This document shows, piece by piece, positions 30,808 to 39,185 of a stretch of 64,000 nucleotides of DNA. Within the stretch, counting starts at the first letter, position 1. Every line of letters starts with the position of its first letter. The stretch is from Sphingopyxis sp. (lineage in GTDB: Bacteria > Pseudomonadota > Alphaproteobacteria > Sphingomonadales > Sphingomonadaceae). The stretch lies in the NCBI RefSeq assembly GCF_025869345.1, contig NZ_JAOZVW010000023.1, positions 1 to 64,000 of the forward strand. The letters run 5' to 3'. The position numbers and the translations under genes were made by a program. The notes below the pieces were generated by a model. The model ran no database searches, had not been told where the DNA came from, and saw only the letters and a program-made list of their open reading frames with translations.

Positions 30808-31194
30808 TCAGGCCGCTTCGATGTCGGTCAGCGCGAAATCATTGCCTTTGAACAACAGCGGCTCGCCGGTCGCCTTCGCAAGGGCATAAGCGAAACAGTC
30901 GCCGAAGTTCAGTCCGGCTTTATGACGTCCCTTGCCGAAGTCGAGAAACGCCTGCCTGGCCAATTCACCCTGCTCGATCGTTACCGGCTCGATCGTAATT
31001 CCAGCGCGCCGAAAAAAGGCTTCCGCCTGGCGCGTCCCCTCGGGTCCGAGTTGGCTTTCGACGACCATCGACAGCTCGACGTGATTGGCGACACTGATCC
31101 GGCAGTTGTCGGCATCATGGATGCGTTGGGCAAAGGAAGGTGCCTCGGGTTCGCGATAGAGAATCGCGACGAGGGCGGAGGTGTCGAGGATCAT
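30808..31194 (-). CDS. vapC: VapC toxin, PIN-domain ribonuclease
   Basis: A 128-residue PIN domain with the acidic metal-binding set: MILDTSALVAIL (first Asp), ANHVELSMV (Glu) and LNFGDCFAYALAK (Asp). It should be a Mg-dependent RNase that stops translation by cutting tRNA or rRNA when freed from its antitoxin. Its ATG overlaps the end of the antitoxin gene by four bases. Its 3' end lies ten bases from that of the LuxR regulator (convergent). Confidence 0.92.
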   Translation of the reverse strand: MILDTSALVAILYREPEAPSFAQRIHDADNCRISVANHVELSMVVESQLGPEGTRQAEAFFRRAGITIEPVTIEQGELARQAFLDFGKGRHKAGLNFGDCFAYALAKATGEPLLFKGNDFALTDIEAA

Positions 31195-31439
31195 CCGGGC
31201 AGGCCGTTATCGTCGTAGAGCATCTCGGCATGATCGGCATAAGCGCCTTTGAGATGGACGGCAGCACGGTCGGCGATCGCGAGCAGCTCCTCCACGCTTG
31301 CCTTGGCATTGCGGCGCTGAATCTTCGCCAGCCGGTCGCGCAAGGCATCCGTCACCACGCGGGTCATGCTCTGGCCGGTCGCCCGCGAAATCGCCTGTGC
31401 GAGACGGTGCGCTTCGGGATCCTTGACGTTCAAGCTCAT
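31191..31439 (-). CDS. vapB: VapB antitoxin
   Basis: An 82-residue protein starting MSLNVKDPEAHRLAQAISRATGQSMTRVV, the ribbon-helix-helix-like N-terminus of the Rv0623/PSK-type VapB group, with a C-terminal segment (AVHLKGAYADHAEMLYDDNG) that would wrap around the toxin. The start at 31439 has AAAGG upstream; the track ORF begins 19 codons earlier and is less likely. A TTCTAGAA palindrome just upstream could be the autoregulatory site. It forms an operon with vapC. Confidence 0.88.
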   Translation of the reverse strand: MSLNVKDPEAHRLAQAISRATGQSMTRVVTDALRDRLAKIQRRNAKASVEELLAIADRAAVHLKGAYADHAEMLYDDNGLPG

Positions 31440-31590: not shown

Positions 31591-32733
31591 ATGGACATGC
31601 TGACCGACGCCCTGACCGAACCGGGACTCGCCGATTTCCGCGCCAAGGTGCGTGTTTTTCTCACCGGGAACCTGCCCGACGATCTTCGCCGCGCCGCAAG
31701 CCGCGCGACGAGCGTCTTCATCGACCCTGCCGTCACGCTGCCGTGGCAACGCATCCTGAATGCGCGCGGCTGGGCGGCGCCCGACTGGCCGGCCGAGTTC
31801 GGTGGCCCCGGCTGGAGCGAAATCGAGCGCTATATCTTCGCCGCCGAGTGCGCCGCGGCCGGCGCGCCGGGCCTCGCGCCGATGGGGCTCAAGATGGTCG
31901 CGCCGGTGATCATGCATTATGGCACGCCCGAACAGCGCGCGCACTATCTGCCGCGCATCCTGTCGGGCGAGGATTATTGGTGCCAGGGTTTCTCCGAACC
32001 CGGCGCGGGCTCCGACCTCGCCTCGCTTCAGCTTCGCGCCGTGCCCGACGGCGACGATTATGTGCTGAACGGGTCCAAGATCTGGACCACCCACGCGCAT
32101 TTCGCGAACCGCATGTTCGCGCTCGTCCGCACCTCGACCGAGGGCAAGCCGCAGGCGGGGATCAGCTTCCTGTTGCTCGACATGAAGGCGCCCGGCATCA
32201 CGGTCGAGCCGATCCGCACCCTCGCGGGCGACCATGAGTTCAACCAGGTTTTCTTCGACGATGTCCGCGTGCCGCAGGCGAACCGGCTCGGCGGCGAGAA
32301 TGAGGGCTGGTCGGTCGCCAAACATCTGCTGACCTTCGAGCGCGGCGGCAAATATGCTCCGGGACTGATCGGGCGGCTCGAACGGCTGCGCGGCGAGGAT
32401 GGTATCGGTCCGGTGCTCCGCGCCGAACTCGACCGCGAAGCGATCGGGCTCGCGGCGTTGCAGGCGCTCGAAATCAAGGCGATGCGCGGGCTCGGCGGAA
32501 GCCCGGCGCTCTATGCCTCGGTGCTCAAGATATTGGGGACCGAAGCCGCGCAGCGGATCGACACGCTCGCCTGCGAGATTGCAGGCCCCGCCGCATGGGC
32601 CGACGCCGACGGCCAGACCCCCGCCGAGCTTGCCGTCGCGGTGCCGCGCTACCTCAACGACCGCGCGGCGAGCATCTATGCGGGCTCGAACGAAATCCAG
32701 CGCGACCTGATCGCGCGGCTGATGCTGGGCTGA
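31591..32733 (+). CDS. Acyl-CoA dehydrogenase, large FadE-type subunit
   Basis: A 380-residue acyl-CoA dehydrogenase with WAAPDWPAEFGGPGWS, CQGFSEPGAGSDLASL, SKIWTTHAHFANRMF, FFDDVRVPQANRLGGENEGW and the C-terminal YLNDRAASIYAGSNEIQRDLIARLMLG. This resembles the FadE subset seen in steroid, terpenoid or bile-acid side-chain degradation. It faces a second, more divergent family member (32858-33880) across a family A repeat, and the two may form a heteromeric enzyme. Confidence 0.88.
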   Translation: MDMLTDALTEPGLADFRAKVRVFLTGNLPDDLRRAASRATSVFIDPAVTLPWQRILNARGWAAPDWPAEFGGPGWSEIERYIFAAECAAAGAPGLAPMGLKMVAPVIMHYGTPEQRAHYLPRILSGEDYWCQGFSEPGAGSDLASLQLRAVPDGDDYVLNGSKIWTTHAHFANRMFALVRTSTEGKPQAGISFLLLDMKAPGITVEPIRTLAGDHEFNQVFFDDVRVPQANRLGGENEGWSVAKHLLTFERGGKYAPGLIGRLERLRGEDGIGPVLRAELDREAIGLAALQALEIKAMRGLGGSPALYASVLKILGTEAAQRIDTLACEIAGPAAWADADGQTPAELAVAVPRYLNDRAASIYAGSNEIQRDLIARLMLG

Positions 32734-32857: not shown

Positions 32858-33880
32858 CTAGGCCGCCGCTTCGGCATAGCGCGCCAGATGATCGGCACGC
32901 GAACCGAATGCCGCCGCGATCGATAGCGCGCGCTTGAAACAGGCGCCGAGGCTCAGTTCCTCGGTCAGCCCCATTGCGCCGTGAATCTGCACCGCGCCTT
33001 CACCGACGATGCGGACCGCATCGGCGACCTCGACGCAGGCGGCGCTGACCGCGCGCGCGCGATCGGCGCCATCGCGGTCGACGGCAAGCACCGCGATCTC
33101 GGCGAGCGCGGCCGCCTTCATCTGCGCGAGCTGCATGTCGGCGACCCGGTGGCGCAGCGCCTGGAACGACCCGATCGCCGCCCCGAACTGCCGCCGCTGG
33201 CCCATATAATCGGCGCTGGCGGCGACCATGCGCTGCATCAGCCCCACCGCTTCGGCGCAGCGGGCCGCGAGCATCAGGTCGGATATCCATTCGGCAAGGC
33301 CGGCTGCCTCCGGCCCCGCCGCCAGCAACGCGCCATCGGCGGCGGGCGCGGTGAAGCCGAGGTCGGCGGTGACGCTGCCGTCGTGCATGATCCGGTGGCG
33401 CTGCTCGACCTTGCCCTGGTCGGCCGCAAGCAGGACGATGCCGCCGCGGTCGGCAACAAGGAACAGGTCGGCCTCGGCCGCCCCGGCAACGAGCCGCGCG
33501 ACCCCATGCACCGCGCCGAGCGCAACATCGGGTATGGCGGCGCTCGATGCGGCGCAGATGATGGCCGCGCGCCGCGACCCCGCCGCAAGATCGGGCAACG
33601 CCTCATGACCGGGATCGGCCCGCGCGATCAGCATCACGGCGGCGGCGTGCGACAGCCAGTCGGCGCCCGCGAGCGCGGGACCAAGCTCGGTCATGGCAAC
33701 CGCGACCTCGATGACGCCGCCGCCGAAACCGCCGGCCGCCTCGGGCACCGTCAGCCCGGCGAGCCCGATCGTATCGACCAGATCGCGCCAGCCCGGACGC
33801 GGATTACCGGCAAGCAGGCGCTGGATGCTCGCCGCGAGCATGTCGCGCTCGACGCTGTGCGGCAGATCGAGCCCGTTCAT
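32858..33880 (-). CDS. Acyl-CoA dehydrogenase family protein, short/divergent subunit
   Basis: A 340-residue protein with the acyl-CoA dehydrogenase fold: LAGLTVPEAAGGFGGGVIEVAV near the N-terminus, YMGQRRQFGAAIGSFQALRHRVADM, and GEGAVQIHGAMGLTEELSLGACFKRAL. The middle FAD-domain motifs are weakly conserved (no clear TEPxxGSD), and it is shorter than usual, as in the small subunits of heteromeric FadE enzymes. Likely partner is the convergent gene at 31591. It ends in AEAAA just before the repeat. Confidence 0.82.
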   Translation of the reverse strand: MNGLDLPHSVERDMLAASIQRLLAGNPRPGWRDLVDTIGLAGLTVPEAAGGFGGGVIEVAVAMTELGPALAGADWLSHAAAVMLIARADPGHEALPDLAAGSRRAAIICAASSAAIPDVALGAVHGVARLVAGAAEADLFLVADRGGIVLLAADQGKVEQRHRIMHDGSVTADLGFTAPAADGALLAAGPEAAGLAEWISDLMLAARCAEAVGLMQRMVAASADYMGQRRQFGAAIGSFQALRHRVADMQLAQMKAAALAEIAVLAVDRDGADRARAVSAACVEVADAVRIVGEGAVQIHGAMGLTEELSLGACFKRALSIAAAFGSRADHLARYAEAAA

Positions 33881-33984: not shown

Positions 33985-34557
33985 TCAAGCGAACAGGCCG
34001 GCCGCCTGCGCAAGCACCCACAGGCCGATGACGAGGAACAGCGCCGCCGCGACCATCCGCACCTTTTTGAGATCGACGCGCTTCAGCAACTCGTTGCCGA
34101 GGAAGATCGCGGGCACGTTGGCGATCATCATCCCCAGCGTGGTGCCGGTCGTGACCGCAAGGACATTATGATATTGCGCGCCGAGCGCGATCGTCGCGAC
34201 CTGCGTCTTGTCGCCCATCTCGACGAGGAAGAAGGCGATCAGCGTCGTCACGAACGCCCCGAAGCGCGGCTTCGGCGCCTCGTCATCCTCGAACTTGTCG
34301 GGGATCAGCGTCCACGCCGCCATCGCGACGAACGAGATGCCGATCGCATAACGGAAGACCGGACTGTCGAGAAAGGCGGCCGCCGACGCGCCGAGCAGCG
34401 CCGCGAGCGCATGATTGGCGATCGTCGCCGCCAATATGCCGAGGATGATGGGAACGGGCCGGTTGAAGCGCGTCGCGAGCAGGATCGCGAGCAACTGTGT
34501 CTTGTCGCCGATCTCGGCGAGCGCGACGACCGCGGTCGAGGTAAGGATGGCTTCCAT
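33985..34557 (-). CDS. TMEM165/GDT1 (UPF0016) family cation transporter, probable Mn exporter
   Basis: A 190-residue membrane protein with six predicted helices and the two signature motifs EIGDKTQ (residue ~15) and EMGDKTQ (~113) in inverted-repeat halves. Bacterial members export Mn2+ (MneA type) or exchange Ca2+/Mn2+ for protons. Its mRNA leader carries a yybP-ykoY riboswitch (34636-34752) and a strong hairpin beside the start codon, both fitting manganese-induced expression. It follows tamA-tamB-lipoprotein on the same strand. Confidence 0.92.
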   Translation of the reverse strand: MEAILTSTAVVALAEIGDKTQLLAILLATRFNRPVPIILGILAATIANHALAALLGASAAAFLDSPVFRYAIGISFVAMAAWTLIPDKFEDDEAPKPRFGAFVTTLIAFFLVEMGDKTQVATIALGAQYHNVLAVTTGTTLGMMIANVPAIFLGNELLKRVDLKKVRMVAAALFLVIGLWVLAQAAGLFA

Positions 34558-34569
34558 GGCAAAACTCCG

Positions 34570-34621
34570 GGGCCGGGCGGCAGGCGAATTCCAACGGACA
34601 TCGCACCCTGCCGCCCGGCCC
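34570..34621 (-). terminator. Riboswitch expression platform: long GC hairpin at the transporter start
   Basis: On the minus strand GGGCCGGGCGGCAGG pairs perfectly (15 bp) with CCTGCCGCCCGGCCC, followed by CGGAGTTTTG and the ATG. It sits between the riboswitch aptamer and the start codon of the transporter. The short T-run suggests an intrinsic terminator, and the stem also abuts the CGGAG ribosome-binding site, so control could be transcriptional or translational. Confidence 0.7.
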
Positions 34622-34635
34622 GGACGGAAGGTTCG

Positions 34636-34752
34636 ATGCCATTGGTCTCGCCCGAACGATGTCCCGTTCCCACCGCACCACGGCCTCTCGACCGAGTATG
34701 TTGACGCGGCGGCCCGTCCGGATCGGACGGCTGGCTACTCCCCAGATGACGT
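34636..34752 (-). promoter_or_regulatory. yybP-ykoY (manganese) riboswitch
   Basis: Read on the minus strand the leader contains CTGGGGAGTAGCC, then GTCAACATACTCGG, then GGGCGAGACCAATGG. The GGGGAGUAG and GAGACC elements, with a purine/pyrimidine-rich CATACTCGG loop between, are the conserved parts of the yybP-ykoY aptamer. Flanking CAT-C-TGG and CCAATG can pair to close helix P1. Known members bind Mn2+ and switch on exporters, which fits the downstream UPF0016 gene. The 5' motif overlaps the last codons of the lipoprotein gene. Confidence 0.85.
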
Positions 34753-34956
34753 GGGCGCGTTAGACGGCTTCGCGGATGCTGGCAAGGCTTTTGGCTGCGT
34801 CGCGGCCGCGGCCTTCTCCGTCTCGGCGATGTCGGCGTCCATCGCCTTGGCGCGCGCCTCGATCTCCTTCGCCGCCATGTCGTAGCGGTCGTCGAAATCG
34901 GGCTCCTGGTGACAGGCGGCAAGCAGCAGCGGCAGCAGGAGAGCGGCGCGGCGCAT
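34735..34956 (-). CDS. Small lipoprotein of unknown function
   Basis: A 73-residue protein with a lipoprotein signal (MRRAALLLPLLLAAC) followed by an acidic/alanine-rich helical region (DMAAKEIEARAKAMDADIAETEK) and a Pro/Ser tail. The ATG overlaps the tamB stop as TGATG, so it is translationally coupled to tamB. Its last codons, TCT GGG GAG TAG, are also the conserved 5' motif of the manganese riboswitch, so the protein's C-terminus is constrained by RNA structure. A role with TamAB in the envelope is likely from position only. Confidence 0.75.
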   Translation of the reverse strand: MRRAALLLPLLLAACHQEPDFDDRYDMAAKEIEARAKAMDADIAETEKAAAATQPKALPASAKPSNAPTSSGE

Positions 34957-37900
34957 CAATAATCCTTGCGATAGCGGATGCTGACATTGGTCTGGCCCGA
35001 TCCGCCCGCCTGGCTGAGCAGCGACAGCGCGCGCGTCAGACTGATCTCAAGCTGGGTCGCGGTATAGCCGCGCGCGTCGGTGATCACCTCCAGATAGATA
35101 TCCTTGGTGATATATTGCCCCGCCGCGAGCGCGGTGCCGCGCCCCGTCGTATCGTCGGGGCCGAGGACGCGCAGCCGGTCGATCCCCGCCGCCGACTGCA
35201 GCGCGCCGAGCGGGTTCAGGCCCCCGCCCCCGCTGCTCAGCGTGTTGAGCGAAGCGGCAAGCTGCACCGCCTGGAGCGGCGACAGCGAGGTGATCGAATC
35301 GCCGAACAGGATGCGCGAGACGATCTCGTCCTGCGGCAGGCCGGGAACGCTGGAAAAACTCACCTGCGGATTGCTCGCGCGGCCCGACACGTTCACCGAC
35401 ACCGTCACATTGTCGAAGGTATCGCTCGCGACGAGTTGCAGCGCCGGATCATAGGCGTCGCCGGTCGGGAACGTCACTTTCCCTTCCTCCAGCTCGAACG
35501 ACCGTCCCGCAAAGCCCAGCGTTCCGCGCACCAGCTCGACCTGGCCGGTCACGCGCGGATCGAGGGTCGTGCCCTTAAGCTGAATGTCGGCCTGCCATTC
35601 GGACTCGAGTCCCATGCCGGTGACGTAGATTTCGTCGCCCGCGCGCAAACGAATGTCGAGCCGGATGAGGTCGAACAGGCTCCCGCCGACCGCCGCGAGC
35701 CCGTCGCCACTGATCCGCCGCCGTCCTGTCGGCGGCTTGCGCCGCACACCCGTGAGAACCGGCACGGCAGCTGCCCCCTCGCGCACGATGCGATACCGCG
35801 TCTCGGGCAGGCGAAGGTCGCCCGACAAAAGCGCGGTCTGCCCCGCGACCTTTTCGAGCGTCAGCGTGCCCGTCGCGCGCGCCGCGATATTCTCGCTCCG
35901 CGCAAGCCGCGCATTGTCGAGCGTCGCGCTGAGATTCATCGGATAACCATCGGCCTGCGACAGGCTGACATAGCCCTTCGCATCGATGCTGCCGTCGCCC
36001 GCTGTCGCGGTGAGCTTTTCGATCTCCAGCCGGTTGCCGGTGAAGCGCCCGTCCACGACCATGTTGGTCAGCCGCGTGCCATAGGCCTGATTCTCATAGG
36101 TCATGCCGTTGCCCCGGATCACGCCATTGAGGCACGGATCATCGACCCGGCAGCTGAAATCGGCGGCGACCGCGATCGGTCCCGAAACCCCCTGCCCGGC
36201 AGGCCCAGCGAAGGAATAGAGCGTGTCGGCGGGGCCGTTGTAGCGCAGCCCGCCGCTCAGCGGCGCGGCGCGCAGCCGCGTCGTCCAGTCGCCCGCGCCG
36301 GGACCGAGCGGGCGGAGCGAGGCCTGCAGCCGCCCGATCACGCTGCCGCGCTTGCGGATCACCGCCCGCGCCTCGCCGCCGTCGCTGAGCAGCTTGCCCG
36401 CGAAATTGATGTCGACCGGCTGGCTGACTGTCGCCGCGGTGGTGCGCGTGAAGTCGCTGATCGTCAGCCGCGCATCAGCGCGCGGAAAGGCGTCGGCGTT
36501 CGTCTGCGCGAAATCGATGCTGCCCGTCGCGCGCCCGCCGAGCCCAAGCCCCGGATAGACGGCGTTGACGACCGCCATGTTCGCGCGATCGAGCCGGCTC
36601 TGGAGCATGATGCCCTCGCCGAAACGTCCCGCGACGCGCGCGCTGCTGCCGCGCCCGAGGTCGATCGTCGTCGGGAGCAGTTCGTAATCCTCCTTGTGCG
36701 GGATGATCCTGGCGGGAGAAACGGTGCGGAAATTGACCCCGGTCGCGCGGCCCTGCACCGACGCGCGCCAGAGGTCAGGCTGCAGGTCAGCGTTGGCGGC
36801 GATGCGGAAAGGCACACCGCTCGTCCCCTCGACGAGCGCCTGCGCCTGGCCACGCCCGTCGCGATAATCGATCTTCACCCGCCCGACCGCGATGTCATAA
36901 GTGCGAATCTGCGTATCGGCGATCTGGATATCGGCGACAATGCGCGGCTTGTCATAGAGAACGACGTCGGCATCGACGATCGCCGACCCGACCGCGAGCT
37001 TCGCGGCGCCGGGCAGCACGACATTGTTCGCGCGCACGTTGATCGCCGCTGCCTGATACTGGCCTTCGCCGCTCAGCCGGACGAGACCGCCAAGACCCTG
37101 TCCCGATGCGTCGAGCCGACCCTCGAACGGACCCGCAGCGCTTTTCACCAGCCGTCCGTGGAAGCCGATTCCCGACAGGTCGCCGCGCTCGATGTCGATC
37201 GTCATCGGCCCCGCCGCGGTCAGCAGCACGACGTCGGCCGACAGTGGGCCATAGTCGGTGTCGCCGGTCGCCGCGAGGCGGTAGCCGTTCGGCGCGCCAT
37301 TGATCTTCGCGACCAGATTGGCGAGCCCGATGCCGAGCCCCGGCCGGTCCGCCGTCACCACCGCGCGCGGATCGCTGATCGTTCCGGCAAGCTGGACGCC
37401 GACCGGGCCGTAATCGGTCGAATGCGCGCGCGCCGCGAGCTGAATCTGTCCATTGGGCGAATAGCTGCCCTGCCCGCCCGTCACCCGCAGGCGCGGCGCG
37501 GCGAGCCGCAGATTGGCGAAACGAACGATGCCGTCGGTGCCATAGCGCACGTCGCCGCTCGCCACCGCATTGCCGCCGAGGAAATCGCGAACCCCCGAAT
37601 TGAACAGCCGCGTCGAGCGCGCGCGCACCTTGCCGACGATCTCGAACCCGCCGCGCGGCGCAGTCTTCAGATCGGCGTTGGTGTCGATGTCGAACAGGCC
37701 GACGCTCTCGATGCGATAGTCGTTGACCCGTCCGTCGATCGCGCCGGTGTAGAAACCCTTGTTGAGATCGGCGATCACGATCGCCTTGGCATCGATCCGC
37801 GGCGAGCGGAGGCGCAGATTGTCGCTGAGGATGCGCCCATCCTTATAGGCGAGATCACCGTCGAGCCGCACCTGCACCAACGTCCCGCCCAGGGCGGTGT

Positions 37901-39185
37901 CGAGCCCGCGAATGCGCGCCGCGCGCCCGGCGACGGGCACGTAAATCTGATCGGCATCGACTCGCGCCTTGCCCGCGAGGCTCAGCGTCTCGACAATGAC
38001 GTCGTTGAAAGCGAGGGCATTGGCGTTCGCCTGATATTCCACCGTTGGCAGGTTGAACGCACCGTCGAGCTTTGCGGTCGCGCGCAAACCGTTGCCGCGC
38101 AGATTCGGCGCGAGCGCATCCGGGCGTAGCAGCACGAAGGCGAGGCTCAGCGCATCGTAACGGCTCTCGCCGAGATCGACCCCGCCGCTGATGCCAAGAC
38201 GGAAGGCGTCCGACGATAGCCGGCCGTCGAGATCGGCCTTGCGCTTGTCGAGCCGCGCGGTGACGTCGACCGCGGTCTCGCGGCTCAGCAGCGAAGCGAC
38301 GGGTCCCTCGGCGAGCAGCCGCGACGCCTGTGTCGTGCCCTTGACCGCGAACGTGCCGTCTCGCGCCGTCAGCGCGAGCCGCGCGAGCGGGTCGGTGCCG
38401 AGGTTGGCGATCAGCGAACCGTCCCATTTCGTCCAGTCGCCGCGCCCGCCGAGCTTCGCGGTCAGCGGCGCGGTGAACCCGCCCATCGCCGCGAGCACCC
38501 CGCCCTGCGGCGCGTTGAGGTCGAGCGTCGCGGCGAGGCGGTTCTTGTCGGGCACCGCATCGAGGACGAGCGCGAGCCTGTCGCCCCTGGCCTTCTCGCC
38601 GATCGTCTCCGCATTCGCGGTGACCTGCGCGCGGCGGTCGGCGATCGCGATCTTGCCGCTTAGCGTCGCGACCTGCCGCTCGCCAGTGATCGCGGGCTCG
38701 AAGATCAGCCGGTCGACGCGCAGGGTCCGCACGTCGATGTCGATGTCGGGGAGCAGCGGCTCGCCGGTGTCGGGCACCGGCTTGAAGGTCGGCAATTTCT
38801 CGACGACCAATGTTTTCGCGGTCGCCGAACGGACGTCGACATGATTCGACAGAAAGGCGAACGGCCGCCAGTCGATCCGGAGCTCGGGCGAACGCACGAA
38901 CACGCCCTTGGGATCGGACAACGAAAAATCGCGCACCACCATCTCACCGAACAGCGATCCGTCGAGCCGGCCGATGCCGATCTTCATCCCGTTCTCGAAC
39001 TCATATTTCTCGATCTGCGTCGCAACGAAGCGCCGTCCGGCGTCGCTGTTCAGCCCGATCAGGAACAGCGCGACCAGCGCGATCAGGCCGAGCAGCGCGA
39101 TTCCGGCGCCCTTGGCGATCCGGAACCCCAGCGACGGCCCCGCCGGCTTGTCGCCTTCGGTCGCGATGGCCGCGTCCTCCGCCAT
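34956..39185 (-). CDS. tamB: Translocation and assembly module inner-membrane component TamB
   Basis: A 1409-residue protein with one N-terminal membrane helix (GAGIALLGLIALVALFLIGL, residues ~27-46) and a very long periplasmic beta-rich part (AsmA/DUF490 type) with repeated segments such as GGRGDWTKWDG, DARLTISDF and GRASNPQVSFSSVPGLPQDEIVSRILFG. The last ~350 residues are the conserved TamB domain, ending SGQTNVSIRYRKDY. TamB bridges the inner and outer membranes and, with TamA, moves outer-membrane proteins or phospholipids. Its start overlaps the tamA stop by one base. Confidence 0.95.
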   Translation of the reverse strand: MAEDAAIATEGDKPAGPSLGFRIAKGAGIALLGLIALVALFLIGLNSDAGRRFVATQIEKYEFENGMKIGIGRLDGSLFGEMVVRDFSLSDPKGVFVRSPELRIDWRPFAFLSNHVDVRSATAKTLVVEKLPTFKPVPDTGEPLLPDIDIDVRTLRVDRLIFEPAITGERQVATLSGKIAIADRRAQVTANAETIGEKARGDRLALVLDAVPDKNRLAATLDLNAPQGGVLAAMGGFTAPLTAKLGGRGDWTKWDGSLIANLGTDPLARLALTARDGTFAVKGTTQASRLLAEGPVASLLSRETAVDVTARLDKRKADLDGRLSSDAFRLGISGGVDLGESRYDALSLAFVLLRPDALAPNLRGNGLRATAKLDGAFNLPTVEYQANANALAFNDVIVETLSLAGKARVDADQIYVPVAGRAARIRGLDTALGGTLVQVRLDGDLAYKDGRILSDNLRLRSPRIDAKAIVIADLNKGFYTGAIDGRVNDYRIESVGLFDIDTNADLKTAPRGGFEIVGKVRARSTRLFNSGVRDFLGGNAVASGDVRYGTDGIVRFANLRLAAPRLRVTGGQGSYSPNGQIQLAARAHSTDYGPVGVQLAGTISDPRAVVTADRPGLGIGLANLVAKINGAPNGYRLAATGDTDYGPLSADVVLLTAAGPMTIDIERGDLSGIGFHGRLVKSAAGPFEGRLDASGQGLGGLVRLSGEGQYQAAAINVRANNVVLPGAAKLAVGSAIVDADVVLYDKPRIVADIQIADTQIRTYDIAVGRVKIDYRDGRGQAQALVEGTSGVPFRIAANADLQPDLWRASVQGRATGVNFRTVSPARIIPHKEDYELLPTTIDLGRGSSARVAGRFGEGIMLQSRLDRANMAVVNAVYPGLGLGGRATGSIDFAQTNADAFPRADARLTISDFTRTTAATVSQPVDINFAGKLLSDGGEARAVIRKRGSVIGRLQASLRPLGPGAGDWTTRLRAAPLSGGLRYNGPADTLYSFAGPAGQGVSGPIAVAADFSCRVDDPCLNGVIRGNGMTYENQAYGTRLTNMVVDGRFTGNRLEIEKLTATAGDGSIDAKGYVSLSQADGYPMNLSATLDNARLARSENIAARATGTLTLEKVAGQTALLSGDLRLPETRYRIVREGAAAVPVLTGVRRKPPTGRRRISGDGLAAVGGSLFDLIRLDIRLRAGDEIYVTGMGLESEWQADIQLKGTTLDPRVTGQVELVRGTLGFAGRSFELEEGKVTFPTGDAYDPALQLVASDTFDNVTVSVNVSGRASNPQVSFSSVPGLPQDEIVSRILFGDSITSLSPLQAVQLAASLNTLSSGGGGLNPLGALQSAAGIDRLRVLGPDDTTGRGTALAAGQYITKDIYLEVITDARGYTATQLEISLTRALSLLSQAGGSGQTNVSIRYRKDY

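Follow-up and report, generated by a model that had tools for sequence, protein, structure and literature searches.

By its sequence, the minus strand at 34635-34752 of the window (the whole 64,000-nucleotide stretch of Sphingopyxis sp. DNA analysed here) is a complete yybP-ykoY aptamer, for which Mn2+ is the ligand expected from the family, located upstream of a GDT1/UPF0016 transporter gene. We consider it likely, with a probability of about 0.8, that this leader constitutes a yybP-ykoY Mn2+ riboswitch of a GDT1/UPF0016 Mn exporter gene, acting at the level of translation and switching the gene on with Mn (Mn-ON). A previous sequence-only reading had pointed to GGGGAGTAGCC, then GTCAACATACTCGG, then GCGAGACC along the minus strand, together with a closing helix, and the three stretches were found there on re-reading the letters. 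The coordinates it gave (34636-34752) were correct for the aptamer within one base, but left out most of the switching part (34645-34558). The elements of the leader and its neighbours, with the evidence for each, are the following:

34635-34752, minus strand: yybP-ykoY aptamer, predicted to bind Mn2+, comprising P1, L1, P2, P3 with L3, and P4 (RF00080, clade model, covariation).
34742-34750, minus strand: 5' strand of P1, GTCATCTGG, which pairs with CCAATGGC leaving one C bulged (fold and covariation).
34735-34743, minus strand: 5' part of L1, GGGGAGTAG, a conserved core whose TAG also ends the upstream ORF (invariant in 56 relatives).
34714-34730, minus strand: P2 hairpin (fold and covariation).
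34670-34712, minus strand: P3 arm with the conserved TCAACATACTCGG (L3) (conservation and covariation).
34654-34669, minus strand: P4 hairpin (fold and covariation).
34644-34650, minus strand: 3' part of L1, CGAGACC, conserved core (conservation in relatives).
34630-34645, minus strand: strand a, the 3' strand of P1 plus an extension, used by either P1 or the anti-aptamer helix T (energy of T, covariation in 40 leaders).
34607-34621, minus strand: strand h, GGGCCGGGCGGCAGG, which forms the 5' side of hairpin H (pairing and covariation).
34591-34607, minus strand: strand a', GGTGCGATGTCCGTTGG, the anti-aptamer strand enclosed by the loop of H (pairing and covariation).
34570-34584, minus strand: strand h', CCTGCCGCCCGGCCC, which forms the 3' side of hairpin H and borders directly on the Shine-Dalgarno (pairing and covariation).
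34565-34568, minus strand: Shine-Dalgarno GGAG, 7 nt before the ATG (sequence; same place in relatives).
33985-34557, minus strand: GDT1/UPF0016 (TMEM165-like) cation transporter gene, 190 aa (PF01169, EIGDKT and EMGDKT).
34735-34956, minus strand: small lipoprotein-like ORF with its stop codon within the aptamer (ORF of the same type and with the same end in two more genomes of the genus).

The assignment to the yybP-ykoY class, already proposed in the sequence-only reading, is supported by the covariance model, the core letters, covariation and the steady placement of the element before GDT1 orthologues in relatives. The RF00080 model, whose use that reading had suggested, gave a significant match over its full length at 34756-34576 on the minus strand (44.3 bits; E 6.1e-11 with cmscan in the 64-kb window), and a scan of the whole genome returned this one match (E 1.8e-10) and no second copy. 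Since the Rfam gathering score for RF00080 is 45 and the window copy falls 0.7 bits short of it, RF00080 was not reported when the window was scanned with Rfam at curated cut-offs. This threshold is no meaningful barrier, given that the leader of Escherichia coli mntP, an accepted and validated member of the class, also scores below it (44.9 bits); the Rfam cut-off can thus hide sound riboswitch copies. A clade covariance model, with 56 relatives from the family as its training rows, gave 119.3 bits at 34635-34752 on the minus strand, its sole match in the genome; the window copy is itself one of these rows, and the independent value is therefore the Rfam E-value.

As in the RF00080 class, the window element combines a core formed by GGGGAGUAG, UCAACAUACUCGG and CGAGACC, all intact, with a four-helix layout and a position before a Mn-exporter-type gene, and the letters of the L1/L3 metal site (GGGGAGTAG, TCAACATACTCGG and CGAGACC) are present and near-invariant in the 56 relatives. 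It departs from the class in its score and in an extra bulged C in P1 (GUCAU-C-UGG), common to most GDT1-linked copies of the family. Covariation over P1-P4 in the same 56 relatives covered 40 pairs, with 84.9% of cells paired and double changes in 30 of the 40, compared with 31-42% of cells paired when partners were slid. The closing helix noted previously is borne out by P1, where 90% of cells retain the pairing and both sides show changes. The minimum free energy fold of the aptamer alone reached a z of only -1.45, with many shuffles equally good, and single-sequence energy was therefore left out as evidence.

The downstream ORF (34557-33985, minus strand, 190 aa) starts 86 nt from the CGAGACC core and matches the Pfam profile PF01169 with E 7.6e-43 (145 bits, for a cut-off of 27), which agrees with the TMEM165/UPF0016 identity assigned to it earlier; the two E-x-G-D-K-T motifs pointed out in that reading are EIGDKT (residues 15-20) and EMGDKT (residues 113-118). 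Protein relatives, with 93% identity to S. panaciterrae, put the window in or near Sphingopyxis, and no solved structure resembling the transporter in sequence was found. UPF0016 genes were found under yybP-ykoY in 328 of the 333 screened strains having one (reviewed in PMC7380456). MneA of Vibrio cholerae, a UPF0016 protein, exports Mn2+ and is Mn-induced (PMC7380456), and mneA of V. parahaemolyticus lies behind a yybP-ykoY riboswitch and is likewise Mn-induced (PMC13274385). The window gene resembles these published Mn exporters in protein family and riboswitch class, a likeness drawn from published descriptions, although they belong to another lineage. By analogy with MneA, and from the replacement of MntP under the same aptamer described below, the GDT1 protein is probably a Mn2+ exporter, which would firmly label this sphingomonad relative of human TMEM165 as Mn2+-controlled and probably Mn2+-exporting. 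The transporter gene is followed downstream by two convergent acyl-CoA-dehydrogenase-like ORFs at 31591-32733 (plus strand) and 32858-33880 (minus strand), the second identified by profile and the first judged from its sequence, and a likely VapBC-type toxin-antitoxin pair at 30808-31439 (minus strand), with an Rv0623-like antitoxin (PF07704) and a PIN-domain toxin (PF01850).

Among 151 genomes of the family, RF00080 matches at the strict filter were obtained in 57 and PF01169 matches in 93. Orthologues of the window protein, defined by an identity of at least 53%, were present in 64, 47 of them with the aptamer directly upstream, at about 70-96 nt from the start codon, and 17 without it. These 17 occupy other gene contexts, and neither inspection by eye nor the clade model revealed a diverged aptamer in their leaders; about a quarter of the family's GDT1 orthologues therefore lack the aptamer, compared with the near-complete coupling reported in the review (PMC7380456). 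A second GDT1 paralogue, distant at about 31-39% identity, was without an aptamer at every locus read. In nine genomes the aptamer precedes another gene, which encodes MntP in five and a protein of the Na/Ca-exchanger family (PF01699; profile-confirmed in one of them) in four, suggesting a role in Mn2+ for the latter. There was no overlap between the genomes with the GDT1 orthologue (64/151) and those with MntP above the cut-off (19/151), for which the chance probability is about 1e-5, uncorrected for kinship. This mutual exclusion under the same aptamer class reads as one Mn exporter replacing another, and fits GDT1 as a Mn2+ exporter. From a named genome collection, 80 GDT1 loci were gathered by protein similarity alone; the clade model matched 56 of them, which came from Alpha-, Beta- and Gammaproteobacteria, and every match preceded the gene.

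The sequence between the aptamer and the gene carries a conserved expression platform that competes with P1, formed by two alternative helices that both covary. The order of elements after the aptamer is a (the 3' strand of P1), h, a' (the anti-aptamer strand), h', Shine-Dalgarno and start codon. Helix T results from pairing of a with a', and H is a GC-rich hairpin between h and h' that holds a' in its loop and ends at the Shine-Dalgarno, so that T and H cross, and T and P1 are mutually exclusive. T often takes in CGAGACC itself, whereby the metal site would be destroyed. In the window leader T has an energy of -24.9 kcal/mol (z -3.0); over 48 leaders the mean is -27 kcal/mol, with z below -2 in 41. 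When each leader's own partner was compared with partners from other genomes, z was -12.6 for T and -7.1 for H, with kinship incompletely corrected. In 40 leaders, 89% of the cells of T were paired (29-47% with slid partners), and double-change cells numbered 66, compared with 19 in shuffles. For H, 95% of cells were paired and double-change counts exceeded those of shuffles; in both tests kinship was again incompletely corrected. The order a-h-a'-h' was also found in leaders of Caulobacter, Duganella, Zoogloea, Herminiimonas and others, and likewise in that of E. coli mntP, where T outdoes shuffles by only a small margin (21 of 500 matched it). The mntP leader thus shares with that of the window the aptamer class, the order of elements up to the Shine-Dalgarno and a score just under the Rfam cut-off, but it regulates MntP instead of GDT1 and contains an additional hairpin after the aptamer, ahead of h. 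A switching layout common to GDT1 and mntP leaders is thereby indicated.

According to the mechanism we propose, at low Mn2+ the anti-aptamer strand would capture the 3' strand of P1 to form T, a helix that would also draw in CGAGACC, one half of the metal site, and expression would be poor. With excess Mn2+, metal bound between L1 and L3 would lock P1, leaving the anti-aptamer strand free, and hairpin H could form with this strand in its loop and with its end directly ahead of the Shine-Dalgarno; translation would then rise and the exporter would lower cytosolic Mn2+. The state with P1 and H is taken as the ON state because the layout is common with E. coli mntP, a known Mn-ON switch of translation in which Mn is reported to make the ribosome binding site accessible (PMC11647493). 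Mn-ON is accordingly the best reading of the polarity, by analogy with this shared layout and by the logic of an exporter.

The translational rather than transcriptional level is, like the Mn2+ ligand (from the family), what we infer. It seems unlikely that control is transcriptional, with T or exposed C-rich RNA leading to intrinsic or Rho-dependent termination without Mn2+, and Mn2+ allowing read-through. Such a mechanism would be in keeping with the joint riboswitch and Rho control reported for E. coli mntP (PMC11647493) and with the several T residues that follow helix T in some leaders (three genomes), but that U-rich stretch is not conserved, and hairpin H adjoins the Shine-Dalgarno in most leaders. 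Neither an intrinsic terminator, with its U-tract, nor a sigma-70 promoter was found in the window leader.

With respect to polarity, folding alone does not settle between Mn-ON and Mn-OFF. The mean predicted accessibility of the Shine-Dalgarno was 0.21 for closed P1 and 0.30 when T was forced, which is no clear difference and leans slightly to Mn-OFF, being lower with P1 closed in 36 of 48 leaders. In the P1-closed fold GGAG often pairs with the CTYCG stretch, and a true Mn2+ aptamer could in principle be Mn-OFF if closure of P1 led to H and an outer stem (CTTCCG/CGGAG) hid the Shine-Dalgarno, which T would free. We regard this as quite improbable: helices hiding the Shine-Dalgarno, either with the 5' strand of P1 or with the CTTCCG (CTYCG) stretch of that outer stem, showed no covariation, and both E. 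coli mntP, with the same element order, and the UPF0016 mneA genes of V. cholerae and V. parahaemolyticus respond to Mn in the opposite sense (PMC11647493; PMC7380456; PMC13274385). Moreover, the same calculation on E. coli mntP gave 0.04 versus 0.26, which is the wrong sign, and accessibility calculated in this way is therefore no reliable guide to polarity. That the element is a degenerate, non-functional relic, as its score below the Rfam gathering cut-off might suggest, is highly improbable in view of the intact core letters, the clade model score of 119 bits, the covarying helices and the intact expression platform.

The prediction is not new, as both UPF0016 genes under yybP-ykoY and UPF0016 Mn exporters have already been published; because the pairing of riboswitch and GDT1 had been described in other bacteria, it represents a sound annotation and no surprise. 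A literature search returned no paper joining yybP-ykoY, manganese and Sphingomonas, and this lineage-specific case may be unreported. The additions made here, namely the comparison of platforms and the upstream stop codon that overlaps the aptamer, are modest.

This stop codon belongs to the lipoprotein-like ORF (MRRAALLLPLLLAACHQEPDF...SSGE*), which follows directly after tamB and has as its stop the UAG that lies within the GGGGAGUAG of the aptamer. The large TamB-family gene (PF04357) spans 34956-39185 on the minus strand, immediately upstream of the ORF and the riboswitch. Two other genomes of the genus have a comparable ORF that ends in the same way, and none was seen at the other family loci looked at. 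It is conceivable, though rather improbable, that in this genus translation of the lipoprotein gene runs across the 5' strand of P1 as far as the UAG in the metal-binding loop, so that ribosomes completing this gene would open up the aptamer and link its switching to how the tamB-lipoprotein operon is translated.
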